Of a stretch of DNA of 64,000 nt, positions 18,755-42,387 are shown one piece after another. The stretch is taken from contig NC_023065.1 of assembly GCF_000513295.1 (NCBI RefSeq), forward strand, positions 1,798,001 to 1,862,000. Reading direction: 5' to 3'. Under the pieces are notes generated by a model. It saw only the letters and a list, made by a program, of their open reading frames with translations. It did no database searches and had not been told where the DNA came from. Numbering within the stretch: the stretch's first letter is position 1; each line of letters starts with the position of its first letter. This DNA is from Magnetospirillum gryphiswaldense MSR-1 v2 (GTDB lineage: Bacteria > Pseudomonadota > Alphaproteobacteria > Rhodospirillales > Magnetospirillaceae). A program made the position numbers and the translations under genes.

Positions 18755-18782
18755 GTTTAGGCGGGGCAAACCCCGCCTAAAC
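18755..18782. other. Perfect 12-bp hairpin between convergent irr and the RTX gene
   Basis: GTTTAGGCGGGG (18755-18766) and CCCCGCCTAAAC (18771-18782) pair perfectly around CAAA. No T run follows on either strand, so it is not a standard terminator. It contains the stop codon of the minus-strand RTX gene. It may protect the 3' end or act with Rho. Confidence 0.7.
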
Positions 18783-21700: not shown

Positions 21701-22490
21701 CGCCCCCAGCTCCGTTGCCATTGCCAACAGAATCCCCATCGCCGCCGCCGGTATTGGCCGGGCCGTCACCACCGGACGAGGCGCCATTTGCCGCCGGGGC
21801 CGCCGGCAAAGACGGCGCCACCGCAGGCGGCGCCGATGGTGTCGGGGCAACGGCGCTGACCACCGCGCCGGCATTGCTGGATTGGGTGAAGCTGCTGCCG
21901 AAGGTCGCCCCCAGCACACCGGCGCCGGCATCGCTGATCACCAGCGGCGCGTCACCGCTGCCGGGCCGGCTCAAGGCGATTTCACCGACGAAACCGGAAC
22001 CGGGATCGGGTTGCAGCGCCACCGAGGTCTCGCCGCCGCTGCCGACGCTGCCAACCACGGTGGTGCCGCGCACGCCGACGGACATGGCCGGGGTGGCCAG
22101 CCGGGCGGCGCCCGGCGCTGATTTGGCGATGTCGCCGGAGACGAAGGAAAAGGCGCCCTGGGCCACCAGGATGCTTTCCGATCCGGTCTTGGTCGCCGGG
22201 TCATAGCTGAATTCGTCCAGCCCGATCAGACCGCGATCCTTGAGCACGAAGGTGGAGCGGTCGGCGAAGACCAGCGAGATTTCCGCCGCCGGGGCGGTTT
22301 CCACCTCGTCGCCCTTCAGCAACGGCGCATCCTTGGCGGCGACAATCTTTTGGCCGTCGCGGATGATCCAGGCTTCACCCTGGACCTGGGCGACCTTGCC
22401 GATGACCTGGGCGGTCTTGCCTGCGGCGACCTCTATCACCGGCAACTTTGGCGCGGCGACCGGAGCGGTCATGATGGGCATGGCATTCAC
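18777..22490 (-). CDS. Large secreted FecR / cadherin-like / RTX protein, type I secretion substrate
   Basis: The protein has 1237 residues. Residues about 25-150 form a FecR-like domain (VAQVQGEAWIIRDGQ, LLKGDEVETAPAAEISLVFADRSTFVL, MSVGVRGTTVVG). A tract of 34 prolines, one Thr and 5 prolines follows. Then come tandem cadherin/Big-type repeats with D-x-D-G-D-x-L and VNAVNDAPT spacers. The last third has RTX nonapeptides (GGAGSDKLTGGTGADTLTGG and LVGGAGNDTL) that bind calcium. There is no Sec signal. A C-terminal secretion signal and the adjacent HlyD, ABC and TolC genes mark it as the type I substrate. Likely an adhesin or surface protein. AAAGGTGA precedes ATG 22490. Confidence 0.85.
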   Translation of the reverse strand: MNAMPIMTAPVAAPKLPVIEVAAGKTAQVIGKVAQVQGEAWIIRDGQKIVAAKDAPLLKGDEVETAPAAEISLVFADRSTFVLKDRGLIGLDEFSYDPATKTGSESILVAQGAFSFVSGDIAKSAPGAARLATPAMSVGVRGTTVVGSVGSGGETSVALQPDPGSGFVGEIALSRPGSGDAPLVISDAGAGVLGATFGSSFTQSSNAGAVVSAVAPTPSAPPAVAPSLPAAPAANGASSGGDGPANTGGGDGDSVGNGNGAGGVDPITLPPPPPPPPPPPPPPPPPPPPPPPPPPPPPPPPPPTPPPPPVNDPPVGSGAALTAPGTEGTPYTITAAELLAKVSDPNGDVLTLTGPVTADHGSVTDNLDGTFTLTPDADFHGPMVISYGVSDGSVTITATTLANFANTPDAPVAGSVTLPATSEDTGLVLSLAQLLGSATDADGDPLAITNLSASNGASFTDNGNGTFTITPAANYSGTISLTYDIDDGTGNQVATSASVVVNAVNDAPTMSSYVGMSSPNEDGPFPGETVYALFNTGFSDTADLGTLAGVAVIGNNTVSPDGAWQYSSDGGTTWVDVGGVNDNSSALALSASTKLRFNAAPDFHGTAPSLYVRGLDNSYAGGWSSSTGSAVYTNTSSPGGSSAIAATATELSTDVNAVNDAPTSSAVTLTAGVENVLYTFTETQLLANAVDVDGDTLTISSFTPSTGTVNNLGGGNYSWLLPADYNGTASLAYIISDGQGGTVTGSADVSIAAMVTTAGVDTLTAGDGDHAYRVDAGTFAAGDSIIDTGNPADADVIRVISAGTVDLAAGSVTGIESIAIEASGATTIVLGGGADPQQFQFIGGGPGSDTVRLADSGSTLDLTGIVLTSIDSVSTGAGNDTISFDDVNFPSIGIVVDGDASAVDSDKVIIYQTQAGTLDVSASVFSNIETVALVAATSADVVLIGNSLNNSLVGGAGSDKLTGGTGADTLTGGAGSDVFVYTTPTESANALANRDTITDFTSGTDHIQISVSGAHVDVSGFESVGSYNLGQASLTGGVARTGGVIGDCFYAGGVDQALYVWVGNSSSNINTDGGYVIASPTAIAAADLDFNISGTAGTDTLVGGAGNDTLIASLGGDSLTGNGGTDSFVLADNSNTTITDFTVGTDTVTLSNTEFALGSSGTLAVSDYAEGATAMSGTAFDYGATGDGLVAIQSGADVQLWSTTAMEAATTANSVLVGTLNNVNTSALDNTSFHLGV
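21564..21683 (-). repeat. Polyproline-coding CCN tract
   Basis: Forty codons encode 34 Pro, Thr and 5 Pro. The codons are an irregular mix of CCG, CCA and CCT, so the tract is a degenerate GGN trinucleotide run on the plus strand. It probably forms a stiff polyproline II rod between the FecR domain and the repeat region, and is prone to length change. Confidence 0.9.
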
Positions 22491-22508
22491 CTTTCTGGGA
22501 ATGACGGA

Positions 22509-23861
22509 TCAGGATAGTTTGAACCAATTCAGTGAAAAAATCACTTCATTGCGCAACAGCGGATCGAAAACCATGCGCAAGATGGATTTGCGGCCGATGA
22601 TGATGGAGGCGGTGCCGGCCATGCCCGAGCGCACCGCATGGACTTGGCCCTTGCCATCGGTGAGCACCGCCTGATCCGACTGGATCACCACCTTGTAATA
22701 GGTGTTGACGGTATTGCCCTGGGCTTCCTCGATGGAATCGGCGCCCACCGCCAGCACCCGCCCCGGCAATTGACCGTAGCGGAATGGATCATAGGCGGAC
22801 AGGCGGATGCGGGCGGCCAATCCCTCGCGCAGATGGCCGATATCCTGGGGCGGCACCTTGGCTTCCACCACCAGGGCGTCATCCAGGGGGACGATATCCA
22901 TCAAGGTATCGCCGGGCTTGGCCACCTGACCGACGCTGGTGATCGCCGCCATCTTGACCACGCCGCGCACCGGCGAGCGTACTTCCGAGCGCGACTCGCG
23001 ATCGGTGGCCACCTCCATGGTCGCCTTCAGCGCGGCGATTTCCGCCTCGGCCTTGCTGATTTCCTCCAGCACCTCGGTGCGCCAGCCCTTCTCGAACTCG
23101 TTGAGCTTGGCATCGGCTTCCGCCAGTTGCGCCTGCAAGCGCGAGATGGTGTCGCGCGCGGTGGACACCTCGGTATCCAGCATCAGCTGTTCGCGTTCCA
23201 GCTTGACGATTTCCTGATTGCCGACGACGCCGACCTCATAAGCCTTTCTCTTGATGTGCATTTCCTCGGCGCCCTTGGACTGGGCCCGAGCCAGACCGGC
23301 ATGGCGGGTCTCGGTCTCGACCACCTCGCGCCGGCGTCGCTCCATTTCGCGCTGGATCACCGTCACTTGTTGGGCCCGGTGGGCCAAACGCTCGCCGTGA
23401 ATGCTGGTTTCCCGGCGCTTGGTGTCTGCGTCGATATCAACGCCTGCGGGCCAGACGATGTCCTTGGCCCCGGACAAATCGGCTTTCAGTCGTGCCGCGC
23501 GAGCATGAAAGGCCGACCAGCGGGCGCGACGGTCGGCCAGATCCTGCGCCCCTTGCGAATTGACCAGCCGCACCAGCACTTCGCCCTCGGCGACGAAGGC
23601 ACCTTCGCGTACCAGCACTTCCTGGATGGTGCCGCCCTCGAAATGCTGGACCCGACGCACTTGACCCGACGGCTCGATGCGGGCGGGCGCCGTCACCACC
23701 TCGTCCAGTTCCAGCACCGCCGCCGCCGCGGTCAGGCCGACAAAGGCGGTGACGCACCAGCCCAGCAGCCAATTGGCCGAAGGCGGCGTCAGCTTGGGGG
23801 CAATGCCGTGAATAGGGCTGCGAAAGGCGTCCAGGCCGGGATCAAGGGATTTTTCGGCCAT
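22509..23861 (-). CDS. HlyD-family membrane fusion protein of the type I secretion system
   Basis: The 450-residue protein has one membrane span near residue 35 (WCVTAFVGLTAAAAVLEL), then the first half of a biotinyl-lipoyl-like domain (ARIEPSGQVRRVQHFEGGTIQEVLVREG). A long coiled coil (about residues 105-285) and the closing half (EVRSPVRGVVKMAAITSVGQVAKPGD) follow, then a C-terminal beta-barrel (VPPQDIGHLREGLAARIRLSAYDP). This is the PrtE/LapC/HlyD layout. It connects the inner-membrane ABC exporter with the outer-membrane channel. ATG 23861 is three bases after the exporter stop codon. The substrate gene follows after 18 bases. Confidence 0.93.
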   Translation of the reverse strand: MAEKSLDPGLDAFRSPIHGIAPKLTPPSANWLLGWCVTAFVGLTAAAAVLELDEVVTAPARIEPSGQVRRVQHFEGGTIQEVLVREGAFVAEGEVLVRLVNSQGAQDLADRRARWSAFHARAARLKADLSGAKDIVWPAGVDIDADTKRRETSIHGERLAHRAQQVTVIQREMERRRREVVETETRHAGLARAQSKGAEEMHIKRKAYEVGVVGNQEIVKLEREQLMLDTEVSTARDTISRLQAQLAEADAKLNEFEKGWRTEVLEEISKAEAEIAALKATMEVATDRESRSEVRSPVRGVVKMAAITSVGQVAKPGDTLMDIVPLDDALVVEAKVPPQDIGHLREGLAARIRLSAYDPFRYGQLPGRVLAVGADSIEEAQGNTVNTYYKVVIQSDQAVLTDGKGQVHAVRSGMAGTASIIIGRKSILRMVFDPLLRNEVIFSLNWFKLS

Positions 23862-23864
23862 GGC

Positions 23865-25898
23865 TCAGGCCCCCCGGGGCGGAACAGCGGCAGCGGGCTG
23901 CGCCCGTTCGGCCACCCGCACGATCTTGCCGCGATCCATGGTGGCGACGCGCTGGGCCAGGGCGGTCACCGCCGCCCGGTGCGAGATCACCACCAAGGTG
24001 CGCTGGCCGATGCTTTTGTGAATGCCGGCGATGGCCCGGCGCTCGGTCGCCTCGTCCAGGGCGGCGGTGGGTTCATCCAAGATGGTCACCGGTGCCGCTT
24101 GCAACAAGGCGCGGGCCAGGGCGACCAATTGCCGCTGACCGCCGGAAAGATTGCGTCCGCCTTCCATCACCTCGAAATCCAGGCCCATGCCCACCGGCAT
24201 CACCCCACCCGCGCCCAAGCCGTTGAGCATGGCCACCATGTCGTCATCGGACACCAGCCCGTTCAACGACAGATTGGTGCGCAAGGTGCCGGAATAAAGC
24301 GGCGGGTTTTGCGGGCATACCGCCAGATGGCGGCGCAGATCGGCGGGATCGATCAGGGCGATATCGACGCCGTCCAGCATGACCCGTCCGCTTTGCGGGC
24401 GGATGATGCCGGTCAGTACCTTTTCCAAGGTGGTCTTGCCCGATCCCGATGGCCCCACCACCGCCAGACGCTGGCCGGCGGCCACCATCAGATCAATGCC
24501 GTCCAGCACCGGATGGGAGGCACCGGGATAGCGGGCCACCACGCCGTCCACAATCAACTGCCCCTGCGCCACCGGGCGATGAATCAACGCCGCCCCCAGG
24601 GGCCGCTCGGTCGGGCGTCCGGTCACCGTGCGCAAGGCTTCCAGCGAGGCCAGCGCCGCCAGGGTCTGCGGCACCACCGCCACCAATTGCATGGTGGCGC
24701 CGGTAAAGCGGGTGGCCAGCATGGTGGCGGCCAGGATGACACCGGCGCTCATGTCGCCTTCCACCGCCCGCCAGCCGCCCAGGCCGATGGCAATCAGCAT
24801 GGACAGGTTCTGCGCCAGCATGGACAGATTGCCGCGTGCCGCCGCCACGGTGCGGATGGCCCGCGCGGCGGTGGCGTACAACACCGTGCCCTGGCGAAAG
24901 CGCCCCTGCAAATAGGTCTGGGCGCCGACGCGGCGCACGGTTTCCGGGTCGCTGAAGGATTCCTGCGCCGCCTGGGCGCGGAAGCTGGCGGCGCGCGACA
25001 ATTCGCGGTGCAGCAGCTTCTGCCGGTGCAAGGCGATGAAGGTGGACAGACTGACCACGACATTGAGAGCGAAAACGGCCAAGGCGATCATCGGATCGCA
25101 TAAGAACAGGCCGAACAGAAACAATGCCATGAACGGCAGATCGGCCAGCAACGACACGGCGGCAGCGCCGAAGCCGTCGCGGATGGAATCGAAATCCTGC
25201 AACATGCGCATCAAATGGCCCGAGGGCGCTGCGGCGCCATCGAAGCGGGTTTCCAGGATGCGGCGATGCATGTCCATGGCCAGCCGCACATTGCCGTCAT
25301 GCAAGGCATCTTCCACGAACAAGGCGCGCAGGCGGCGAAACACCTGCTCGAACAAGGCGGCGGCCAGGAACAAAGCGGCCAGGGCGGCCAGCGAATCGAG
25401 CAAGCCGTGCGGCAACACCCGGTCGTAAACCTGAGCCGAAAACAACGGTGCCGCCAAGGCCAGCACATTGGCCAAGGCCCCGGCCAGGGCGGCGCGCACC
25501 ACCATGGGTTTCCACGAGGCCAGCAAGGCCGGCCACGAGGTGGGAATGGCGCTTTCCGCCGTATCCAGCCGCGGGCGGATGAACAGGACCGGTGCCGTCT
25601 CGGCCACCGGCGCAGGCAGGTTGAGCGAACGCGAGGACAAGCCGGCCAGCACCACGCAGGGCAACAGATCGGCGGCAAGCACAGCAAGCTTGGTCTGGGG
25701 CTCGAAATGAGCGGCGAAGCCATGGCGGCCCAGGGCGGTGATCCACGGCGCGGCCGCCGCCTCGGCTTCGGCCATGCGCCATGAATCAAGCAGGGCCGAC
25801 GCCGCGACCACATGGCCCATGGCGCGCAGACAGGCGGATATCGCCTTGGCCTCGGCTTCCAGTGCCGCCGGATCAGCGGGTGAGGTGGGCGACGACAC
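23865..25898 (-). CDS. Type I secretion ABC exporter with degenerate N-terminal domain
   Basis: The protein (677 residues) has an N-terminal region of about 145 residues resembling the C39-like domain of LapB/HlyB exporters without a catalytic Cys. A six-span transmembrane domain starts around LFSAQVYDRVLPHGLLDSL, then an ATPase domain follows with Walker A GPSGSGKTT, signature LSGGQRQLVALARALL and Walker B TILDEPTAALDE. It powers export of the RTX protein. The start is GTG 25898, chosen because GGAGGT lies eight bases before it. A longer in-frame ATG at 25973 would extend further into the tolC-like gene. It overlaps that gene by 26 bases. Confidence 0.92.
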   Translation of the reverse strand: MSSPTSPADPAALEAEAKAISACLRAMGHVVAASALLDSWRMAEAEAAAAPWITALGRHGFAAHFEPQTKLAVLAADLLPCVVLAGLSSRSLNLPAPVAETAPVLFIRPRLDTAESAIPTSWPALLASWKPMVVRAALAGALANVLALAAPLFSAQVYDRVLPHGLLDSLAALAALFLAAALFEQVFRRLRALFVEDALHDGNVRLAMDMHRRILETRFDGAAAPSGHLMRMLQDFDSIRDGFGAAAVSLLADLPFMALFLFGLFLCDPMIALAVFALNVVVSLSTFIALHRQKLLHRELSRAASFRAQAAQESFSDPETVRRVGAQTYLQGRFRQGTVLYATAARAIRTVAAARGNLSMLAQNLSMLIAIGLGGWRAVEGDMSAGVILAATMLATRFTGATMQLVAVVPQTLAALASLEALRTVTGRPTERPLGAALIHRPVAQGQLIVDGVVARYPGASHPVLDGIDLMVAAGQRLAVVGPSGSGKTTLEKVLTGIIRPQSGRVMLDGVDIALIDPADLRRHLAVCPQNPPLYSGTLRTNLSLNGLVSDDDMVAMLNGLGAGGVMPVGMGLDFEVMEGGRNLSGGQRQLVALARALLQAAPVTILDEPTAALDEATERRAIAGIHKSIGQRTLVVISHRAAVTALAQRVATMDRGKIVRVAERAQPAAAVPPRGA

Positions 25899-27342
25899 GA
25901 GGAGAGACCTCCAGAGCAGCGGTCGGCCTGGTTTCCGGCATGGGCGGTTGCGGGTCCAGGCCCATGGCCGCATTCAGCCGTGCCTTGGCCGCTTGCAGGT
26001 CGGAATACAGGATGAAGCGGCGCAAGGTGGACAGCATGCCCGCCGCCTCGGCCTTGATTTCCTCCATGGCGCTGCCGCTGCCGGCCGAGCGCGACTTGCC
26101 GGCCAGCGAGGTGATGCGGCGGTCGATACCGGCCATCTGTTCGGTCAGGCGGAATTCCTTCATGGCGTGGCGATACTGGATATCGGCCACCCGCACCTGG
26201 GTGACCACCGCCATGCCCAGGGCCAAGCGGCGGGCACGGGTGACTTCCGCCACGTTCTGGGCTTGGCCGATGCGCTTGGGGGCGCTCAGCACATCCACCA
26301 AATTCCACGCCACCTGCACGCCGGCATCAGCCCAGGCATTGTATTTGAGATACGAATTGGCATCGTAATGGCCACCAATGAAGGGACCGATGCCGGGAAG
26401 AGACTTCAACAGCTCGGTATAGATTTCCTGGACGTCGATGCGAAACTGGGCTTCCTCGACGCGCAGCTCGGGGCGATTGTCCAGGGCGACTTGCTGCAAC
26501 GCCTCGACATCGGCGGCGGGCGGATCGACCACCAGGGTGCCGCCTTCCTTCAACTCGGCCAGTTGGAAGGCGGTGTGGGACTGCACTCCCATCAAACCGG
26601 CCAGATCGGCCCGCGCGGTGGCGGTCTGACGCTGCATCTCGGCGATCTGGCGCATGGTGTCGACGATGGCGCGCTGATGCGCCAGCATCTGCATGGGGTC
26701 GCCGACCTGACTGCGCTCGGCTTCCTCGGCATCCTTGACCGAACGGATCAGACGCAATTCCAGGGCGTTGTATTTTCTCTCGGCGTATTCGTTGATGACC
26801 GCCTTCCAATAGGCGGCCTGCACGTCCTGGATCAGCAGATGCAGCGCCCGGCGGCGCTTTTCCTGAGCCAGCGTGATGCGGTCGGATTCCTGGTCGGCGC
26901 GCAGCATGGCGATGCCGAAATCCATCAGGTTCCAGGTGGCGGTCAAATCGCCGGTCCGGCTGATGACGTCGTCACTGGTGGAATAATTGCCGGTGGTGCC
27001 GGCGGACAAATCCTTGGACGTGGTCGCCTTGCGCGGACCGCGGCGGCTGAGACCACCCTTGGCGGCCATTTCCGGCAACAGGGCGAAGATGGACAGATCG
27101 GCCTTGCCCTGGGCCAACACTTCTTCCAGCAGCTTGACGCGGGAATCCAGATTATGGGCCACCGCCAGGGCGATGGCATCATCCACCGTCAGCGGCTGCG
27201 ACAGGGTTTCCTGGGGCAGGGTTTCGGCGTGACGTTTGAGATCGGCACGGATTTCCCCCAAGGCCTCGGGCTCAAGCGCACAAGCCGACAGCGACACCGC
27301 CACGGTGGCGACGACAAGGCCGGTTTTAAGGGTTTTCCGCAT
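25873..27342 (-). CDS. TolC-like outer-membrane efflux lipoprotein of the type I system
   Basis: The 489-residue protein begins with a lipoprotein signal (MRKTLKTGLVVATVAVSLSACALEP; lipobox LSAC). Long helical segments follow, with the two-fold TolC/OEP pattern (LTVDDAIALAVAHNLDSRVKLLEEVLAQGKADL, and RPELRVEEAQFRIDVQEIYTELLKSLPGIGPFIGG). It should form the outer-membrane channel for the exporter encoded downstream. ATG 27342 is chosen because it gives the lipoprotein signal. It is the first gene of the four-gene secretion operon, which runs tolC-like, ABC, HlyD, substrate. Confidence 0.88.
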   Translation of the reverse strand: MRKTLKTGLVVATVAVSLSACALEPEALGEIRADLKRHAETLPQETLSQPLTVDDAIALAVAHNLDSRVKLLEEVLAQGKADLSIFALLPEMAAKGGLSRRGPRKATTSKDLSAGTTGNYSTSDDVISRTGDLTATWNLMDFGIAMLRADQESDRITLAQEKRRRALHLLIQDVQAAYWKAVINEYAERKYNALELRLIRSVKDAEEAERSQVGDPMQMLAHQRAIVDTMRQIAEMQRQTATARADLAGLMGVQSHTAFQLAELKEGGTLVVDPPAADVEALQQVALDNRPELRVEEAQFRIDVQEIYTELLKSLPGIGPFIGGHYDANSYLKYNAWADAGVQVAWNLVDVLSAPKRIGQAQNVAEVTRARRLALGMAVVTQVRVADIQYRHAMKEFRLTEQMAGIDRRITSLAGKSRSAGSGSAMEEIKAEAAGMLSTLRRFILYSDLQAAKARLNAAMGLDPQPPMPETRPTAALEVSPRVVAHLTR

Positions 27343-27457
27343 GCTCACGCCGATGTCCTTCTGACAACAGCTTTCATTATTTAAATCAAACCGCTTAACG
27401 AGAGGTTTAACCCAACGCACAAAGCATGGGTGGGGAAACCAGGGGGAGGGAGAAAGT

Positions 27458-27534
<77 letters not shown>

Positions 27535-33810: not shown

Positions 33811-35688
33811 TCAGTTACTCGGGCAGATCAACGCCGCCGAGGCCACGTGATCGGGCGACTTTTTGGCCTCTTTCTTCAATTCGGCGATCAACTGACTGAC
33901 ATCATCGACGCTGTAGACGTGGCGCCCCACCGGCAGGTGGACGATGGCCGCCGATACCGTCATCAACGGAAAGCGCACGATATTGCCGACCCGGTCCTGG
34001 CCGACGATATGGCCGAGACGGCGGGTTTCATCGTCGTAGAAGCTTTCCACATCGCGGGAGAACGACGCACACAGATTGGCGGAAACCCGCAGGGCTTCGT
34101 CGAAATCGGTGCGGCGGAAGCCGCCGAAGAAATCGTCGCCGCCCACATGGGCAGGAAAGCAGGTATCGCGCGGCAAGGCCTTGGCCAGCAATTCGGCGAA
34201 CAGCAAGATGGCGCGATCACCCAGGCGGAAGCCGTATTTATCATTGAACGGCTTGAAATTGTCGAAGTCGAAATAGGCCAGCACATATTCGCAATCGGCG
34301 GCGCCCAGAGCTTCCGACACGTATTCGTGGATCAGATTGTTGCCGGCCAGCTTGGTCAGCGGATTCTGGTCGCGCGCGGCGGCCAAATTCTTTTCGTTGA
34401 TGACGCGAAGCAGCGAGTGGGCGGACAGGAAGCCGGCATATTTCATGTCGTCGACGATGATGATGCCTTCCGATTTCTCCACCGCAGAATAGGCCTGCAA
34501 GATATGCTCGGCCCGGGTGTTGATGTCGGCCATGGGGCAGCGGGTGACGAAATCCTTCAGCCGCCGACCCAAGGTCTTGTTTGAAATCAAAGCCTTGCCG
34601 TAAAGCGAATAGGTGTAGTCCTTCAACTCGGTTTCGCGCACGATGCCCACCGGCTCGCCCGCCGCATCGACCACCGGGAAGAAGGTCACCGATTTGTCGG
34701 CACGGAAGCGCTCGAACACCTCTTCCATGGTGCTGTCCAGGTGGATGGGGTCGATGGCGGCGATCTGATCGGCGATCAGCTTTTGGTCCGACACCGCCAC
34801 CCGGCGTTCGCGCCGCGACAGCCGCTCGATATGGTCGTAATGGGGCTGCATCTGGGCCATGTCGCGGTCAGGTCGCTGCACCAGATAGCCCTGAATCAAA
34901 TCGCAGCCGATATCCTTGCAGACGAAATATTCGCGCTCGGTCTCCACCCCCTCGGCCAGCACCACCACCCCCAACAGATGGGCGATGTTGACGATCTGCG
35001 ACAGGAACAGCTTCTTCTTGGAATCGCTGGCGATGTCGGAGACGAAAAAGCGGTCGATCTTGAGGAAGTCGGGGGCGGCGAAATACAGCAATTGCAGGCC
35101 AGAAAAACCGGTGCCGAAATCATCCACCGCCAGGCGGAAATTGTTGCGCTTGTAGTGGTTGAAGATGGCCGCCGCATGGTTGGGCTGACCGATGGGGTGC
35201 TGTTCGGAAATCTCGAACACCACCTGGCTTTCCTCGATGCCATAGCGTTCCAGCATCTTGCGGGTGCGCGCCGGCAGGTCGCCTTCCAGTTCCAGTCCGC
35301 GATTGTCCAGGTTGAGAAACAACTTGGATTGCCGCCAATGTTCCATGTGCAGGAACTTGACCACCGCTTTTTCCCGAAGCGCCATCTCGACGTCGATCAG
35401 CACACCCAAGGCATGGCAGGTATCGAAGAAATCGGCGATGGATTCGAAACCGGCCTCGGTGGTGTTGCGCAGCAAGGCCTCGTAGCCGTAGCAGGCGCCG
35501 GTATGGATGTTGACGATGGGTTGGAAGGCCACATCCAGGGTAAGCAGAATCTCGTTCCAATGATCGTCGGAAGGCTGCGCCGACGGACGCCCGGGCAAGG
35601 GAAAGGGGCGATGATCGCGCAATGCGGCTCGAGCATGCGACGCAGACGGCTTGGGCGTTTCGCCCAGGGCATTGGCCAAGGTGAACAT
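33811..35688 (-). CDS. EAL-CBS-GGDEF protein, c-di-GMP signalling
   Basis: The 625-residue protein has no membrane span. The EAL domain (about residues 45-285) has catalytic motifs EALLR (E70), FEISEQHP, DDFGTGFSG (D189/D190) and LAEGVET, so phosphodiesterase activity is likely. Residues about 305-435 form a CBS pair (VTFFPVVDAAGEPVGIVRE; EGIIIVDDMKYAGFLSAHSL). A GGDEF domain follows (FDFDNFKPFNDKYGFRLGD), but the signature is GGDDF at 516-520. The EAL-first order is unusual. The GGDDF site may be weak or GTP-binding only. No transmembrane sensor is present, so the CBS pair is the probable input. Confidence 0.92.
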   Translation of the reverse strand: MFTLANALGETPKPSASHARAALRDHRPFPLPGRPSAQPSDDHWNEILLTLDVAFQPIVNIHTGACYGYEALLRNTTEAGFESIADFFDTCHALGVLIDVEMALREKAVVKFLHMEHWRQSKLFLNLDNRGLELEGDLPARTRKMLERYGIEESQVVFEISEQHPIGQPNHAAAIFNHYKRNNFRLAVDDFGTGFSGLQLLYFAAPDFLKIDRFFVSDIASDSKKKLFLSQIVNIAHLLGVVVLAEGVETEREYFVCKDIGCDLIQGYLVQRPDRDMAQMQPHYDHIERLSRRERRVAVSDQKLIADQIAAIDPIHLDSTMEEVFERFRADKSVTFFPVVDAAGEPVGIVRETELKDYTYSLYGKALISNKTLGRRLKDFVTRCPMADINTRAEHILQAYSAVEKSEGIIIVDDMKYAGFLSAHSLLRVINEKNLAAARDQNPLTKLAGNNLIHEYVSEALGAADCEYVLAYFDFDNFKPFNDKYGFRLGDRAILLFAELLAKALPRDTCFPAHVGGDDFFGGFRRTDFDEALRVSANLCASFSRDVESFYDDETRRLGHIVGQDRVGNIVRFPLMTVSAAIVHLPVGRHVYSVDDVSQLIAELKKEAKKSPDHVASAALICPSN

Positions 35689-35877: not shown

Positions 35878-37560
35878 ATGCGTATCCTCGAGCGTCCCAA
35901 TACATTGCCGGCAAGCCTCGCCGACGATCTTGACCTGATCGCCGAGATGACCGCCGATTTCGCCCGTTCGCTGGACATCGAGGAAACGCTGCGCATCGGG
36001 ATTGCCCATATCAGCACCCGTATGGAGGCCGAGGCTGCCTCCATCTTCCTGATGGAGCCGGAAACCGGCGATCTGGTATGCCGGGCCTGTTGGGGACCGA
36101 CCGACGTCAGCGGTCTGCGCCTGCCCAAGGGTCAGGGCATCGTCTGGCGCGCCGTTAACCGCAATGCCACCGAGTTGGTCAAGGACACCAGCGACGACCC
36201 CGATTTCTCCCACAAGGTGGATGCCAATACCGGCTTCATCACCCGGTCCATCCTGTGCGCCCCCATGTCGGTGCGTGACGAACGCCTGGGCGCCATCGAA
36301 TTGTTCAACAAAAAGGGCGGCGGCTCGTTCGACGGCGACGATCGCCGGGTGTTGCAGGCCCTGGCCGCCTCGGCCGCCCTGGCCCTGATCAACGCCCGCC
36401 AGGCCACCGCCATGGCCGAACAACAGGCGCTGAAGCGCGAACTGGCCCTGGCCGCCGACATCCAACGCGCCATGCTGCCGCCGGCACGACCGCCGGAATT
36501 TCCCATCCACGGCATCAATCTGGCGGCGCGCGGTGTATCGGGCGACTTTTTCGACGTGGTCGAGCTGAAAGACGGCAAGCTGGCCTTCGCCATCGCCGAC
36601 GTGTCGGGCAAGGGCATGAACGCGGCCTTGTTGATGGCCAAGACCGCCAGCCTGTTCCGCTGTCTGGCCAAGCGCCTGGATGGGCCGGGCGCGGTGTTGG
36701 CGGCCATCGATGCCGAACTGGCGGAAACCAGTTCAGCCGGCATGTTCGTCACCATGATCGCCGGCGTGCTGGACCCGGCCACCGGCACCGTCACCTTGGC
36801 CAATGCCGGGCACGAACCACCGCTGTTGTGCTGCGGCGCCAAGATGGACCGCATCGACGACGGCATGCCGCCCTTGGGTATCGTCCCCGAGTTGTTCGCC
36901 CAAGGCTGCCCGGAAACCACGCTTCAGTTGAACGGCGGCGCGCTTTATCTGTTCACCGACGGCCTGACCGAGGCCGGCGGCACCGACAGCATGCTGGGGG
37001 CCGACGGCGTCGCCGCCCGCCTGACTCCGCACCGCATGCGCCCGGCCCCCGACCGCCTGCGCGCCCTGGTTGGCGGCATCGTCGAAGACGGCATGGCGCT
37101 GAAGGACGACCTGACCATGGTGGTGGTCGAGGATTGCCGCACCGCCCCGGTGATGAACCGCCAATACCAAGCCCGCCCGGCCAGTCTGGCGGCCATCCGC
37201 CGCGCCTTGACTCCGGCGTTGGAACGCCTGGGCTGTCCATCGCAGGTGGTGCCCGACGTGGTGCTGGCGGTGGACGAAGCCTGCCAGAACATCATCCGCC
37301 ACGCTTATGGCGGCGGCGAGGGCGAGCTCATCATACAGGTCCGGGGCGATTCCGAGATGCTGGATATCCGGCTGATCGACTTCGCCCCACCGATCAATCC
37401 GGCCATGGTCTGCCCGCGCGACCTTGATGACATCCGGCCCGGCGGATTGGGAACTCATTTCATCCGATCGGTGATGGATGAGGTAGAGTTCTTGGCACCG
37501 CCGCCCGGAGCAGGCAATCTATTAAGACTGGCAAAACGTATGGGTATGGGTGGGCCATGA
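35878..37560 (+). CDS. GAF - PP2C (SpoIIE/RsbU) phosphatase - HATPase (RsbW-like kinase) fusion protein
   Basis: The 560-residue cytoplasmic protein combines three domains. A GAF sensor is at about residues 20-175 and a linker helix at 175-200. The PP2C-type phosphatase (205-418) has its metal aspartates present: GVSGDFFDV, IADVSGKGMNAAL, LFTDGLTEA, KDDLTMVV. A C-terminal GHKL ATPase (430-555) has N-box VDEACQNIIRHAY and glycine motif PGGLGTHFIRSV, as in the anti-sigma kinases RsbW/SpoIIAB. One protein could thus both dephosphorylate and phosphorylate a STAS partner. The next gene, overlapping by four bases, encodes a STAS protein, followed by an Mla-type lipid transporter. No sigma factor gene is nearby. 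Confidence 0.92.
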   Translation: MRILERPNTLPASLADDLDLIAEMTADFARSLDIEETLRIGIAHISTRMEAEAASIFLMEPETGDLVCRACWGPTDVSGLRLPKGQGIVWRAVNRNATELVKDTSDDPDFSHKVDANTGFITRSILCAPMSVRDERLGAIELFNKKGGGSFDGDDRRVLQALAASAALALINARQATAMAEQQALKRELALAADIQRAMLPPARPPEFPIHGINLAARGVSGDFFDVVELKDGKLAFAIADVSGKGMNAALLMAKTASLFRCLAKRLDGPGAVLAAIDAELAETSSAGMFVTMIAGVLDPATGTVTLANAGHEPPLLCCGAKMDRIDDGMPPLGIVPELFAQGCPETTLQLNGGALYLFTDGLTEAGGTDSMLGADGVAARLTPHRMRPAPDRLRALVGGIVEDGMALKDDLTMVVVEDCRTAPVMNRQYQARPASLAAIRRALTPALERLGCPSQVVPDVVLAVDEACQNIIRHAYGGGEGELIIQVRGDSEMLDIRLIDFAPPINPAMVCPRDLDDIRPGGLGTHFIRSVMDEVEFLAPPPGAGNLLRLAKRMGMGGP

Positions 37561-37883
37561 AAATCGAAAGCCGAGAAATCGACGGTGCCGTCGTGGTGGC
37601 GCTGTCCGGGGAAGTGGATTTGCAGCACTCGCCGTCGGTGCGCAAGCACCTGATGGATCTGATGTTCGAGCGCCGCCCGGTGGTGGTCGACATGGCCTCG
37701 GTCGATTACATCGATTCGTCGGGTATCGCGTCGTTGGTCGAGGCCTATCAGATGGCCCGCAAGAACGGCACCCGCTTCATCCTGGCGGCGATCAGCGCTC
37801 CGGCCATGCGGGTCTTGCAACTGGCCCGGCTGGACAAGGTCTTCGCCCTCGCCGACACGGTCGAGGCCGGGTTGCAGGCCTGA
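37557..37883 (+). CDS. STAS-domain protein, RsbV/MlaB-like
   Basis: The 108-residue protein is a single STAS domain: VVVALSGEVDLQHSPSVRKHL, then VVVDMASVDYIDSSGIASLVEAY. The DSSG motif (S55 as the second Ser) matches the phosphorylation site of anti-sigma antagonists. In Mla transporters the STAS subunit MlaB binds the ATPase MlaF. The gene lies between the phosphatase/kinase gene (four-base overlap) and the MlaE-like permease (one-base overlap), so it could serve as MlaB, as a partner-switch target, or both. Confidence 0.88.
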   Translation: MKIESREIDGAVVVALSGEVDLQHSPSVRKHLMDLMFERRPVVVDMASVDYIDSSGIASLVEAYQMARKNGTRFILAAISAPAMRVLQLARLDKVFALADTVEAGLQA

Positions 37884-38686
37884 TGCCCACCCCCAATCCC
37901 TCGGCACTCCTGGAACGCCTGGGCCGCGCCGCCGCCCGCGGCCTGTCCGAGTTCGGCTTCGCCGCCACGCTGCTGGGGCAGTCGCTTTATTGGCTGGTGC
38001 TGGGGCATTGGCGCCGCCAGCCGGTGCGCGCCGCCTCGGTCGCCGCCCAAGCCATGGATATCGGCATCGCCGCCCTGCCCATCATCACCGTGCTGTCCAC
38101 CACCATCGGCCTGATGCTGGCCATCCAGGGCATCTACACGCTGAAAACCTTCGGCGCCGAAAGCCGCGTCACCTTGGGGGTGGCGCTGTCGGTGGTGCGC
38201 GAATTCGCCCCCCTGATCACCGGCATCCTGGTGGCCGGACGGTCCGGCTCGGCCCTGGCGGCACGACTGGGCACCATGCGCATCAACCAGGAAATCGATT
38301 CGCTCACCGTCATGGGCATCAACCCGGTACGGTTCCTGGTGGCGCCGCCCTTGGCCGCCATGATGATCCTGATGCCGCTTCTGACCCTGTGGGCCGATCT
38401 GGTCGGCCTGTTCGCCGCCGGCCTTTACATCTCCATCGAATTGCAAGGCACCATGGCCGGCTATGCCGACGAGGTGTTGTCGCTGCTGAAGCTGAACGAC
38501 CTGCTGCACGGCCTGGCCAAAAGCGCCATCTTCGGCGTCCTGGTGACTATCGTCGGCGTCGTCAACGGCGCCTCGGTGTCGGGCGGGGCCGAGGGCGTCG
38601 GCCGCATGACCACCCGCTCGGTGGTCCATGCCATCTCGGCCATCGTCATCACCGACATGATCTTCGTCTTCCTGGTGACCAGATGA
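37883..38686 (+). CDS. mlaE: MlaE-family lipid ABC transporter permease
   Basis: The 267-residue protein has an N-terminal amphipathic region and five to six membrane helices with MlaE signatures: ITVLSTTIGLMLAIQGIYTL, VREFAPLITGILVAGRSGSALAARLGTMRINQEIDSLTVMGINPVRFLV, and the C-terminal MTTRSVVHAISAIVITDMIFVF. It is the inner-membrane permease that moves phospholipids between the inner membrane and the MCE protein. ATG 37883 overlaps the STAS stop by one base and GTGA/ATGA overlaps couple it to the ATPase gene. Confidence 0.95.
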   Translation: MPTPNPSALLERLGRAAARGLSEFGFAATLLGQSLYWLVLGHWRRQPVRAASVAAQAMDIGIAALPIITVLSTTIGLMLAIQGIYTLKTFGAESRVTLGVALSVVREFAPLITGILVAGRSGSALAARLGTMRINQEIDSLTVMGINPVRFLVAPPLAAMMILMPLLTLWADLVGLFAAGLYISIELQGTMAGYADEVLSLLKLNDLLHGLAKSAIFGVLVTIVGVVNGASVSGGAEGVGRMTTRSVVHAISAIVITDMIFVFLVTR

Positions 38687-39519
38687 GTGAAACTCCCAGC
38701 GTCGAGGTCATCGACCTCAACACCCATTACGGCGACCGTCAGGTGCTGAAGAACGTGTCGCTGACCGTCAAGCCCGGCGAAATCTTCGTCATCATGGGCG
38801 GTTCGGGCTCGGGCAAGACCACGCTTTTGAACCATCTCTTGGGCCTGCTGCGCCCCAGTTCCGGCACCATTCGCATCCTGGGGCAGGAAATCAACGCCCT
38901 GTCGGCGCTGGAAATGCAGGATTTGCGCACCCGCATGGGCGTGGCCTTCCAGTCGGGCGCGTTGTTTTCAAGCATGAGTGTGGGAGACAACATCGCCCTG
39001 CCCCTGCGCGAACATACCAATCTGGATGAAACCACCATCGGCATCGTCACTCGTTTGAAGCTGGAGGTGGTGTCGCTGGCCGGCTTCGAGTACCTGATGC
39101 CGTCGGAACTGTCGGGCGGCATGATCAAGCGCGCCGCCTTCGCCCGCGCCATCGTCATGGACCCGCGCCTGTTGTTCTGCGACGAACCGTCGGCGGGGCT
39201 CGACCCGGTGGTGGCGTCTTCCATCGACGATCTGATCCTGCGTCTGCGCGACGCCATGGGCATGAGCATCATCGTCGTCACCCACGACCTGGACAGCACC
39301 TTCAAGATCGCCGACCGCATCTGCGTGCTGGACAAGGGTGAGGTGCTGGCGCTCGATACGGTCGACGCCATCCGCAATTCGCCCAACGAGCGCATCCAGA
39401 ACCTGCTGAACCGCCGTACCGAAGAGGCGGAAATCGACCCCGACGCCTATTTGCGCCGTCTGTTGGGGGAAAAAGAAAAACTTCGGGACAAGCCGGAAAG
39501 CAGAAGGAACGGGTTATGA
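38683..39519 (+). CDS. mlaF: MlaF-family lipid ABC transporter ATPase
   Basis: The 278-residue ATPase has Walker A GGSGSGKTT near residue 39, Q-loop AFQSGALFSSMSV, signature LSGGMIKRAAFARAI, Walker B LLFCDEPSAGLDP and H-loop VTHDLDS. The SGGMIKRAA signature is characteristic of MlaF rather than other ABC ATPases. The C-terminal extension (EEAEIDPDAYLRRLLGEKEKL) may dock on a partner. It overlaps both neighbours by four bases and would associate with the upstream STAS protein and MlaE. Confidence 0.95.
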   Translation: MSETPSVEVIDLNTHYGDRQVLKNVSLTVKPGEIFVIMGGSGSGKTTLLNHLLGLLRPSSGTIRILGQEINALSALEMQDLRTRMGVAFQSGALFSSMSVGDNIALPLREHTNLDETTIGIVTRLKLEVVSLAGFEYLMPSELSGGMIKRAAFARAIVMDPRLLFCDEPSAGLDPVVASSIDDLILRLRDAMGMSIIVVTHDLDSTFKIADRICVLDKGEVLALDTVDAIRNSPNERIQNLLNRRTEEAEIDPDAYLRRLLGEKEKLRDKPESRRNGL

Positions 39520-40466
39520 GGGACGCACGCACCAATTACATCGTCGTCGGCGCCTTCGTGCTGGCCATGCTGGCGGCCCTGATCGTGTCGGTGGCACTTT
39601 TGACCGGCAAGACCGGATCAAATGATCTCTACACCACCCAATTACCCAACGTCACCGGCATCAAATACGGCAGCAAGGTGACCTATGAAGGCTTTGTCGT
39701 CGGTCAGGTCGAAGGCATCGAAGGCCTGCAAAAGGACAACCGCACCTGGTTCCGTGTCACCATGGGCGTCCAGGAAGGCTGGGCCATCCCGGAAGGGTCG
39801 CTGGCCCGCATCACCGCGCCAGGTATCCTGGCAGCGCCGACGCTCGACATCAAGGGCGGCGCCTCGGACAAGCTGCTGCCGCCCGGATCGGACATTCCCG
39901 GCGGTGCCGCCGCCAACATTTTCGCCACCATGAACGCCATGGCCGGCGAAGTCAGCAAGCTGACCGACCAGGGATTGCTGCCGCTGATGGCCACCGTCAA
40001 CACCCAGGTGGAGGCCTTGGGCCTGATCATGCAAAAGCAGGCGCCGGAACTGATGGCCAATCTGGTCACCCTGTCCAACGATCTGGCCGTCAAGGCCCCG
40101 CGCATCACCAGCGACGTGCAAAAAATCACCGGCACCTTGTCGACCCAGGTAATCAACGACAAGAACGCCGACGCCATCGCCCAATCGCTGGCCAACACCG
40201 CCGACCTCACCGCTGGACTGGTGGAAACCCGCAAGAAACTGGACAACGTGGTCGCCACCATCGACGGCAACAAGGGCCAGATCGACCAATCCATGAAGGA
40301 TCTGCGCCATACCTTGCAGGCCCTGGCCAGAAACATCGATTCCATCGCCTATAACCTTGAAGGCACCAGCCGCAACGTGCATGAATTCAGCCGCCAGATC
40401 CGGGACAATCCCGGTGTGCTGATCGGTGGCACCAAGGGCGCCGAAGACGGGCCGGGACGGCGTTGA
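39516..40466 (+). CDS. mlaD: MCE-domain protein, MlaD type
   Basis: The 316-residue protein has one N-terminal membrane anchor (YIVVGAFVLAMLAALIVSVALL), then an MCE domain (about residues 38-115: LPNVTGIKYGSKVTYEGFVVGQVEGI, and ARITAPGILAAPTLDIKGG). A long helical C-terminus (120-300) follows, of the kind that forms a tube or reaches across the periplasm. It is longer than E. coli MlaD (about 180 residues) and closer to PqiB/Mce-style single-domain proteins with helical tails. It binds lipids in the periplasm. The gene is coupled to mlaF by a four-base overlap. Confidence 0.93.
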   Translation: MRDARTNYIVVGAFVLAMLAALIVSVALLTGKTGSNDLYTTQLPNVTGIKYGSKVTYEGFVVGQVEGIEGLQKDNRTWFRVTMGVQEGWAIPEGSLARITAPGILAAPTLDIKGGASDKLLPPGSDIPGGAAANIFATMNAMAGEVSKLTDQGLLPLMATVNTQVEALGLIMQKQAPELMANLVTLSNDLAVKAPRITSDVQKITGTLSTQVINDKNADAIAQSLANTADLTAGLVETRKKLDNVVATIDGNKGQIDQSMKDLRHTLQALARNIDSIAYNLEGTSRNVHEFSRQIRDNPGVLIGGTKGAEDGPGRR

Positions 40467-40480
40467 GGGGAATTTCAACC

Positions 40481-41065
40481 ATGCGTAACCTGTCGCTTAT
40501 CGCCGCCCTGGCCGTCACCTTGGCCGCCTGCGCCCAGCAAGCACCGCCCAAGGACCGCTTCTATCGCCTGGAAACCCCGCCGGTGGCCGCCCGCTTCGCC
40601 GCCCCAGCCTTGGGCGTGATCGAGGTCAGCCGCCCCACCACCGACGGCGTGTTGTCTGAACGCCCGCTGGCCTATCAGGACGGTGACGGCACTTTGGGCC
40701 GCTATCGTTATGATCTGTGGGCCGAACCGCCGACCGCGCTCTTGCAAAACGCCCTGGTGGACTCGCTGCGCCTGTCGGGCATCTCTCACACCGTCATCAC
40801 CCCGGAGACCCGGGTACCGCCCGATTGGATGGTCCGCGGACGGCTGAACCGGTTCGAGATGCTGGCCGGGGCCGGCAAGGTGGTGGCAAATGTCGAGCTG
40901 GCGGTGGTGTCGTCCCGTGACGGTTCGTTGCTGCTGTTGAAAACCTATCAGGTTGAAGTACCCAGCGCCGCCGGCCCCGAGGCCGAGGCCGCCGCCCTGA
41001 CCCAGGCCAGCGGCGACATCATCACTGCCTTCATCGCCGATCTCGGTCGGGTCGCCAAGCCATGA
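40481..41065 (+). CDS. ABC-transport auxiliary lipoprotein (PqiC/DUF330-like)
   Basis: The 194-residue protein has a lipoprotein signal (MRNLSLIAALAVTLAACAQQ; lipobox LAAC). The mature part, beginning PPKDRFYRLETPPVA and including GVIEVSRPTTDGVLSERPLAYQ and LLQNALVDSLRLSG, resembles the ABC_trans_aux (PF03886) family. These outer-membrane lipoproteins accompany MCE transporters and probably receive the lipid tunnel at the outer membrane. It starts 14 bases after mlaD and overlaps the following RNA methyltransferase gene by four bases. Confidence 0.85.
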   Translation: MRNLSLIAALAVTLAACAQQAPPKDRFYRLETPPVAARFAAPALGVIEVSRPTTDGVLSERPLAYQDGDGTLGRYRYDLWAEPPTALLQNALVDSLRLSGISHTVITPETRVPPDWMVRGRLNRFEMLAGAGKVVANVELAVVSSRDGSLLLLKTYQVEVPSAAGPEAEAAALTQASGDIITAFIADLGRVAKP

Positions 41066-42387
41066 GCTTGCGCAAGCGTCCCTCTTCCGCCGCCGGTCGC
41101 GGCAAGCCGCGCCAAAGCCCGCCGCCGCGCAACGTCGAGGTGGAGATCACCGAAATCGGCGCGCGCGGCGACGGTATCGCCCAATTGGGCGACGATCTGG
41201 TGTTCGTCCCTTTCACCGTGCCCGGCGACCGCGTCGTCGCCCGCATCGAGGGCCGGCGCGGCGACGGTCTGGCCGCCGCCCTGATCGAGGTCACCCGAGA
41301 AGGACCGGGGCGCAGCTTGCCCCCCTGCCCGCATTATGGCCGTTGCGGCGGCTGTTCGCTGCAACACCTGGATGACGACGTCTACGCCCAGTGGAAAAGC
41401 GGCTTGCTGCTGACCCAATTGTCCCGTCACGGCCTGGGCGATGCCCCGGTCGGCGCCATGATCCGCGTCGCCGCCGGTCAGCGCCGCCGCGCCACCTTCG
41501 CCTTTCATCGGCGCAAGGGCTCGACCGTGTTCGGCTTCAACGCCCGCGCCAGTCACACCATCATCGACCTGGATGATTGCCTGCTGCTGGACCGCGCCCT
41601 GGCCGCCATCATCGCGCCCTTGCGGCACATCCTGACCGAAACCGTACCCGACAGCGAAGACGGCGACGTCACCGTCGCCCTGACCGCCGGGGGGCTGGAC
41701 ATCCTGGTGGAAGCCGATGCCCGCCTGGATCTGTTCGACCGGGAAAAACTGGCGGCCTTCGCCGATTCCCACGATCTGGCCCGGCTGTCCTGGCGCCGTC
41801 CCGGTGCCGGCTTCATCGAGCCCATCTCGCGCCGTCGTGGTGCCTTGGTGCATTTCGCCGGCATCGCCGTCGAACCGCCGCCCGGCAATTTCCTGCAACC
41901 CACCGAGGCCGGGGAAAAAGCCATCGCCCAATTGGTGTGCACGGGAATCGGCAAGGTCAAGGCGGTGGCCGACCTTTATTGCGGCTGCGGCAGCTTCACC
42001 TTTCCGCTGGCCGCCAGCGGTGCCGCCGTACACGCGGTGGAAGGCGACGAAGCCCCCATCCGCGCCCTGGAAGCCGCCGCCAACATGGCCGGGCTCAAGA
42101 TCACCACGGAAACCCGCGACCTCGCCCGCCGCCCATTGTTGCCGCAGGAATTGAAGAAATATCAGGCGGTGGTGTTCGACCCGCCGCGCGCCGGCGCCCA
42201 GTCGCAGGCGGAATATCTGGCCCAGGCGGCACCGGCCATTGTGGTGGCGGTGTCATGCAACCCGGCCACCTTGGCCCGCGATCTGCAAATCCTGGTCAAA
42301 GGCGGCTATCGGGTGGAAAGCATCACCCCCATCGACCAATTCCCCCATTCCACCCACCTGGAAGCGGTGGCGGTCTTGCGGAAATAG
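41062..42387 (+). CDS. TrmA/RumA-family RNA (uracil-5)-methyltransferase
   Basis: The 441-residue protein has a TRAM RNA-binding domain (VEVEITEIGARGDGIAQLGDDLVFVPFTVPGDRV), the [4Fe-4S] cysteines CPHYGRCGGCSLQH, SAM motif DLYCGCGSFTFPLA and the catalytic nucleophile in VVAVSCNPATLARDL. The family methylates C5 of specific uridines in 23S rRNA or tRNA; the iron-sulfur cluster suggests an RlmD-type rRNA enzyme. The basic N-terminus (LRKRPSSAAGRGKPRQ) may contact RNA. It overlaps the lipoprotein gene by four bases, so it probably belongs to the same transcript although its job is unrelated. Confidence 0.9.
   Translation: MSLRKRPSSAAGRGKPRQSPPPRNVEVEITEIGARGDGIAQLGDDLVFVPFTVPGDRVVARIEGRRGDGLAAALIEVTREGPGRSLPPCPHYGRCGGCSLQHLDDDVYAQWKSGLLLTQLSRHGLGDAPVGAMIRVAAGQRRRATFAFHRRKGSTVFGFNARASHTIIDLDDCLLLDRALAAIIAPLRHILTETVPDSEDGDVTVALTAGGLDILVEADARLDLFDREKLAAFADSHDLARLSWRRPGAGFIEPISRRRGALVHFAGIAVEPPPGNFLQPTEAGEKAIAQLVCTGIGKVKAVADLYCGCGSFTFPLAASGAAVHAVEGDEAPIRALEAAANMAGLKITTETRDLARRPLLPQELKKYQAVVFDPPRAGAQSQAEYLAQAAPAIVVAVSCNPATLARDLQILVKGGYRVESITPIDQFPHSTHLEAVAVLRK

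Follow-up and report, generated by a model that had tools for sequence, protein, structure and literature searches.

On balance, the operon described here appears to encode an MCE lipid transporter together with a partner-switching system that controls it, in which a protein with GAF, phosphatase and kinase domains (GPH) would set the phosphorylation of a STAS protein and the STAS protein would in turn switch the MlaF ATPase. The parts of this operon and their linkage are firmly established. Sequence comparison gives good support to an intact kinase, phosphatase and acceptor residue and to a functional link between the enzyme and the STAS protein, and the functional link of this pair to the transporter is supported indirectly. 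The sign of the effect, the ligand of the GAF domain and the lipid that is moved are parts of the best model that we only infer.

Results

The window is a stretch of 64,000 nucleotides from Magnetospirillum gryphiswaldense MSR-1, whose genome is a single 4.37-Mb contig; the nearest records found were Magnetospirillum. The original prediction had named genes for GPH, a STAS protein, MlaE, MlaF, an MCE protein and a lipoprotein in this region, and all six were confirmed in place on the + strand. The first of these (35878..37560) encodes the 560-aa GPH, in which Pfam and NCBIfam models match a GAF domain, a SpoIIE-type PP2C phosphatase domain (E 5e-37) and an HATPase_c_2 domain of the RsbW kinase type (E 1e-24). 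It is followed by a 108-aa STAS protein of the RsbV/SpoIIAA type (37557..37883; E 4e-22) with the motif D53-S54-S55-G56 and S54 as the predicted acceptor, and by a 267-aa MlaE permease that has no N-terminal STAS fusion (37883..38686; Pfam PF02405, E 3e-66). The next genes encode a 278-aa MlaF-type ATPase (38683..39519) with the C-terminal extension DPDAYLRRLLGE, a tail that is conserved in the operon type, and a 316-aa MCE protein (39516..40466; Pfam PF02470, E 2e-11) with an MlaD domain and a long C-terminal helical region. These first five genes had been described as joined by overlaps of 1-4 bases, and the overlaps measure, in order, 4, 1, 4 and 4 bases. The sixth gene (40481..41065; Pfam PF03886, E 2e-17) encodes a PqiC-like ABC-type transport auxiliary lipoprotein (ABC_trans_aux) with the lipobox LAAC; by sequence its start is more likely the ATG at 40481 than the TTG at 40463. 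A Pfam-assigned RlmD/TrmA-like RNA uracil methyltransferase gene (41062..42387, +) overlaps the lipoprotein gene and is probably a bystander, often linked (about 65 loci).

The operon holds all the parts of an Mla/MCE transporter, namely the MlaE permease, the MlaF-type ATPase and the MCE protein, and by analogy with this family the transporter would move phospholipids between membranes. The curated equivalog cut-offs for the E. coli-type Mla proteins are not reached by MlaE (158.9/315), MlaF (209/441) or MlaD (55.8/135).

The STAS protein had been described as MlaB-like, and this description did not hold. Its score against the anti-sigma factor antagonist family TIGR00377 is 81.8 bits (cut-off 53.45), and its score against the MlaB family NF033618 is 23.5 bits versus a cut-off of 90. 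Profile matches to solved structures returned RsbV/SpoIIAA types first (E 2e-24 to 6e-13) and MlaB only at 2e-4. In the AlphaFold2 model, a strand at 97-99 and a helix at 102-107, both with pLDDT of about 95, supply the fifth strand and the final helix missing from MlaB, and VIA-align of this model gave Z of about 18 to RsbV/SpoIIAA types versus 13 to Pseudomonas MlaB. An MlaB ortholog is ruled out by the sequence scores and the predicted fold. Judged by sequence, length and model, the STAS protein is an RsbV-type protein at the position where MlaB would be.

The proposed phosphosite also had to be moved by one residue, from S55 to S54. By homology the relevant residue is the one directly after Asp53, which we take to be the equivalent of SpoIIAA S58, RsbV S56 and MlaB T52. 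This acceptor is Ser in all STAS proteins of GPH loci (178/178). Such invariance alone is no proof of phosphorylation and was rejected as such, because the hydroxyl is also conserved in STAS-MlaE fusions that lack GPH: among 38 of these from other alphaproteobacteria and some other bacteria, read by eye, about 29 have Thr (DTxG), about 7 have Ser and 2 have no hydroxyl, and in E. coli the MlaB T52A substitution abolishes ATPase activity (PMC5016091). By analogy with that substitution, conservation of the hydroxyl probably has a structural reason as well. The difference between Thr and Ser fits recruitment of an RsbV-type STAS protein together with its enzyme.

The idea that one protein carries both activities agrees with the motifs, from which the PP2C and RsbW-type kinase domains are both predicted to be intact. 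The metal-binding Asp columns of the PP2C domain are invariant among GPH homologues (174/174, 175/175 and 177/177), as are the Glu and Asn of the kinase N-box (179/179), and the glycine-rich box GxLG is conserved. A PP2C domain with its Asp residues, an HATPase_c_2 kinase with intact boxes and a STAS protein with Ser after Asp are together what is expected of an RsbU/RsbW/RsbV module. The GAF domain was considered as a possible cGMP-type domain; of its NKFDE motif, N-K-F-D is conserved but not the last Glu. A single chain carries all GPH domains in 132 loci, GAF-PP2C and HATPase are encoded by two genes in 40, and in one locus (L074) the two halves are in exchanged order.

In two close relatives (L066:1740-2495 and L071:7724-8479), the kinase domain and the STAS protein form one 252-aa protein with no stop between them. 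The kinase half of this fusion matches RsbW/SpoIIAB and the STAS half RsbV/SpoIIAA. Its AlphaFold2 model had a pLDDT of 95.2 and a pTM of 0.78, which was the sole interdomain measure used, came from an alignment in which some rows were unpaired and some ran through stop codons, and exceeds the value that we expect of two domains that move freely. Of the steps in the proposed mechanism, the kinase-STAS relationship has the best support, owing to this fusion with its model and matches. Taken with the motifs, the sequences make it very likely that GPH acts on the STAS protein as kinase and phosphatase, and the adjacent STAS protein remains its likely substrate, as originally predicted.

The GPH protein as query returned 79 loci, and more members of the order were then fetched to give a set of 180 GPH loci in which some genomes appear twice. 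Downstream of GPH, a STAS gene is present in 178 of these loci, MlaE in 166, MlaF in 161, the MCE protein in 156 and the lipoprotein in 148, with missing genes mostly explained by contig ends; the order GPH-STAS-MlaE-MlaF-MCE-lipoprotein is found in nearly all loci of sufficient length. Comparison with relatives had been proposed as a check, with a gene order conserved in no relative as a refutation; the same gene order clearly recurs in them. Since it does so with median intergenic gaps of 5 nt or less, the arrangement is more than chance.

Among 150 sampled genomes of the order, in which operon-type MlaE was defined by E below 1e-80 (the paralogue gives about 1e-40), 97 have both this MlaE type and GPH, 4 have GPH only, none has the MlaE type only and 49 have neither. 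Three of the 97 (G002, G117 and G145) were counted from GPH pieces beside MlaE at contig ends, and no p-value was attached to these counts because the sampled genomes are related and not independent. The GPH-only genomes are G018, G019, G146 and G077, in the last of which the contig stops just past the STAS gene. The predicted linkage to the transporter is conserved across an order. Phylum-wide, both are rare: GPH was found in 5 of 398 genomes (E below 1e-60) and the MlaE type in 6 of 398. In this phylum sample, one genome with the MlaE type (G297) also has HATPase-STAS upstream and another (G205) has its locus cut by a contig end; in G248 the MlaE type comes with no STAS or kinase match in the 1.4 kb upstream, which makes this genome a possible exception to the pairing. 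Nevskia-like genomes retain both the GPH-STAS pair and the MlaE-MlaF-MCE-lipoprotein genes, but at separate sites.

MlaB binds and stabilises MlaF, and the regulation of MlaB activity has been called open; phosphorylation of MlaB T52 was proposed in two structural and biochemical studies of the E. coli protein, without experimental evidence or a kinase (PMC5016091, PMC7367683). In the C-terminal extension of E. coli MlaF, Tyr261, Leu265 and Leu266 lie between MlaB and the partner MlaF (PMC7367683). Operon-type MlaF proteins have a C-terminal Y-x-x-x-L with the spacing of these residues, which in the window reads Y-L-R-R-L-L. This element occurs in 157 of 158 operon-type tails (156 with the strict pattern, and L075 with YLRRL in another flank), and the sole tail without it (L013) is cut by a contig end; in Nevskia-like MlaF, which is outside this count, Phe replaces Tyr. 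It is absent from the tails of paralogous, STAS-less MlaF proteins in MSR-1 and in GPH-less genomes of the order. The gene for the paralogous MlaF of MSR-1 is linked to an alanine racemase gene and has no STAS gene beside it. The tail sequence gives indirect support to an MlaF that may be fitted for a STAS partner. Mutual information with APC, computed over 116 non-redundant operons with an effective number of 69, picks out the known MlaE-MlaF contact with a residual of +0.44 but does not single out STAS-MlaF (+0.24), which scores no higher than GAF-MlaF (+0.24). We infer that the STAS protein binds MlaF.

Some lineages have kept the GPH-STAS pair without this transporter. In the Phaeospirillum-type loci (L014, L015, L018 and L272), GPH-STAS is followed directly by the RlmD-like gene with no transporter genes, and in L300 it is kept with a remnant of the lipoprotein gene while the transporter genes are gone. 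The pair is intact in these loci. Its dN/dS among L014, L015 and L018 is 0.14-0.23, with similar values (0.11-0.12) for their RlmD-like gene, and by this measure GPH-STAS without the transporter is under purifying selection in the Phaeospirillum group. The MlaE genes left in this group are the paralogue and a STAS-MlaE fusion. Retention of the pair after loss of the transporter indicates that, at least in these lineages, the pair has one or more other targets, and is the strongest point against a reading in which transport is the only output.

Discussion

In the proposed mechanism, the GAF domain of GPH would sense a signal, the HATPase domain would phosphorylate the STAS protein on S54 and the PP2C domain would take the phosphate off. 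Unphosphorylated STAS protein would occupy the MlaB site on MlaF, so that the ATPase would stay assembled and active, and phosphorylated STAS protein would release MlaF and lipid transport would be turned down. Of the outputs the module could have, control of MlaF by the STAS protein is the most likely and has a somewhat better than even chance of being correct.

The original prediction had favored a transport target over a transcriptional one. The conserved transporter linkage supports this, and the claim that a sigma factor is absent can be extended, as no SigB/F/G-type sigma factor over the family cut-off is present anywhere in the genome. However, GPH-STAS outlives the transporter in some lineages, so the claim as made is too narrow. 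A sigma-factor target was rejected, the best SigBFG match being 134.9 bits versus a cut-off of 234 and presumably a housekeeping or heat-shock sigma factor. There is still an appreciable, if minor, chance that GPH and the STAS protein are a true kinase-phosphatase and substrate pair whose target is a separate regulator, of transcription, biofilm or the cell envelope, and that the transporter is merely co-expressed. The five transporter-less loci, with the low dN/dS of three of them, speak for this, as does the RsbV type of the STAS protein, and there are STAS proteins with other targets, such as SypA and BtrV (PMC8256260). However, the transporter type without GPH was found in 0 of 97 cases in the sampled order, MlaF bears an MlaB-type tail, no SigB/F/G-type sigma factor reaches its cut-off, and Nevskia keeps both the pair and the transporter although they are unlinked.

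The wiring within the operon could also differ from that proposed above. In classical partner switching the final target is bound by the kinase and not by the STAS protein. The HATPase domain might itself bind and restrain MlaF until unphosphorylated STAS protein pulls it off, as with anti-sigma factors, or phosphorylated STAS protein might be the active form; an RsbV-type STAS protein suits such schemes as well as it suits the role of MlaB, and a reversal of sign has been reported for BtrV (PMC8256260). We consider these schemes improbable, as the STAS protein MlaB binds MlaF directly, with binding weakened by T52E (PMC7367683), and the MlaF tail matches the STAS-binding arrangement. That GPH is catalytically irrelevant, with the STAS protein an MlaB-like stabilising subunit and its Ser purely structural, would account for the Thr or Ser kept in most of the GPH-less fusions read by eye but is very improbable given the invariant kinase and phosphatase motifs in about 180 loci, the low dN/dS and the invariant co-occurrence.

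The favored reading, in which GPH sets the state of the STAS protein and the STAS protein switches MlaF, combines features of several known systems. As in MlaFEDB of E. coli and Pseudomonas, MlaE, MlaF, an MCE protein and a STAS protein belong to one system, the MlaF tail has an aromatic-x-x-x-Leu element and a hydroxyl residue follows the Asp of the STAS motif. However, MlaB is a minimal STAS protein with Thr whereas a full RsbV/SpoIIAA-type STAS protein with Ser is present here, E. coli has no known dedicated kinase or phosphatase whereas GPH is in the operon, and a PqiC-like lipoprotein is present with no MlaC in the operon. The PP2C phosphatase, GHKL kinase and DSSG STAS protein resemble RsbU-RsbW-RsbV and SpoIIE-SpoIIAB-SpoIIAA in domain folds and motifs, but phosphatase and kinase are usually one polypeptide behind a GAF domain here, and the genes beside them in the operon encode an ABC lipid transporter and no sigma factor. 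Rv1364c of M. tuberculosis likewise has sensor, phosphatase and kinase on one chain together with STAS; it differs in its PAS sensor, in having STAS in the same chain, in its proposed sigma-factor regulation and in lying outside a transporter operon. SypE of V. fischeri is one protein that is both serine kinase and phosphatase on the STAS protein SypA, whose target is no known sigma factor (PMC8256260), but this pair governs biofilm formation and no ABC transporter target is known for it. The STAS-MlaE fusion permeases of other alphaproteobacteria also tie a STAS domain to MlaE, but by fusion to the permease, usually with a DTxG motif, and with no GPH in the sampled cases. An early survey of mce operons described STAS and DUF330 neighbours and its text gives no phosphatase or kinase for the Gram-negative clusters (PMC1810536). 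Published open-licence papers yielded no earlier report of a GPH-type module in an MCE transporter operon.

The data presented here suggest, by a modest balance of the evidence, that phosphorylation of a STAS subunit directly gates an ABC lipid transporter. Such a dedicated switch would turn retrograde or anterograde lipid transport on and off in response to a signal, and it would be conserved across Rhodospirillales, with scattered occurrences in other proteobacteria. A transporter of the Mla kind is found here together with an intact kinase and phosphatase and with Ser replacing Thr, in bacteria of which laboratory strains exist, so that post-translational control of MCE lipid transport can be tested directly. 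If true, a membrane transporter would join the targets of partner switching, and the pairing of the kinase-phosphatase with its STAS protein would offer a testable answer to what turns this type of pump on and off.

The GAF-PP2C-HATPase enzyme (GPH; 35878-37560, plus strand) carries in its GAF part four conserved positions of NKFDE, a motif of cyclic-nucleotide GAF domains (N 98%, K 87%, F 100% and D 98%), and comparison of homologues showed that the final Glu is not conserved. Divergent from GPH lies a gene for an EAL-CBS-GGDEF protein (33811-35688, minus strand), and the locus comparison found such a gene again 5' of GPH in many Magnetospirillum-type loci. This neighbour makes a connection to c-di-GMP possible.

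At the other end, the operon is overlapped by an RlmD/TrmA-like methyltransferase gene (41062-42387, plus strand), an overlap found in about 65 loci. In loci without the transporter genes, this methyltransferase gene lies immediately 3' of the STAS gene. A remnant of the auxiliary lipoprotein gene adjoins an intact GPH-STAS pair in one related locus (L300:5356-5661), a sign that a transporter was lost there.

The genome's second MlaE-MlaF pair (L001, L167) adjoins an alanine racemase gene; it is without STAS and its MlaF tail is short. Two tandem MCE genes (C1:865919-866658) lie apart from this pair. Among the STAS-MlaE fusions, those of L154, L155, L224 and L239 have WDSG or WDSA in place of DTAG and possibly form a subtype of their own.

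Elsewhere in the window, genes of HlyD-like, ABC and outer-membrane efflux type accompany one for a Cadherin/RTX-repeat protein, and together they make up a type I secretion cluster (18780-27465, minus strand). The organism's own genome also holds further clusters of STAS with PP2C/HATPase genes (L162, L164, L165 and L166), and therefore has several partner-switching modules.
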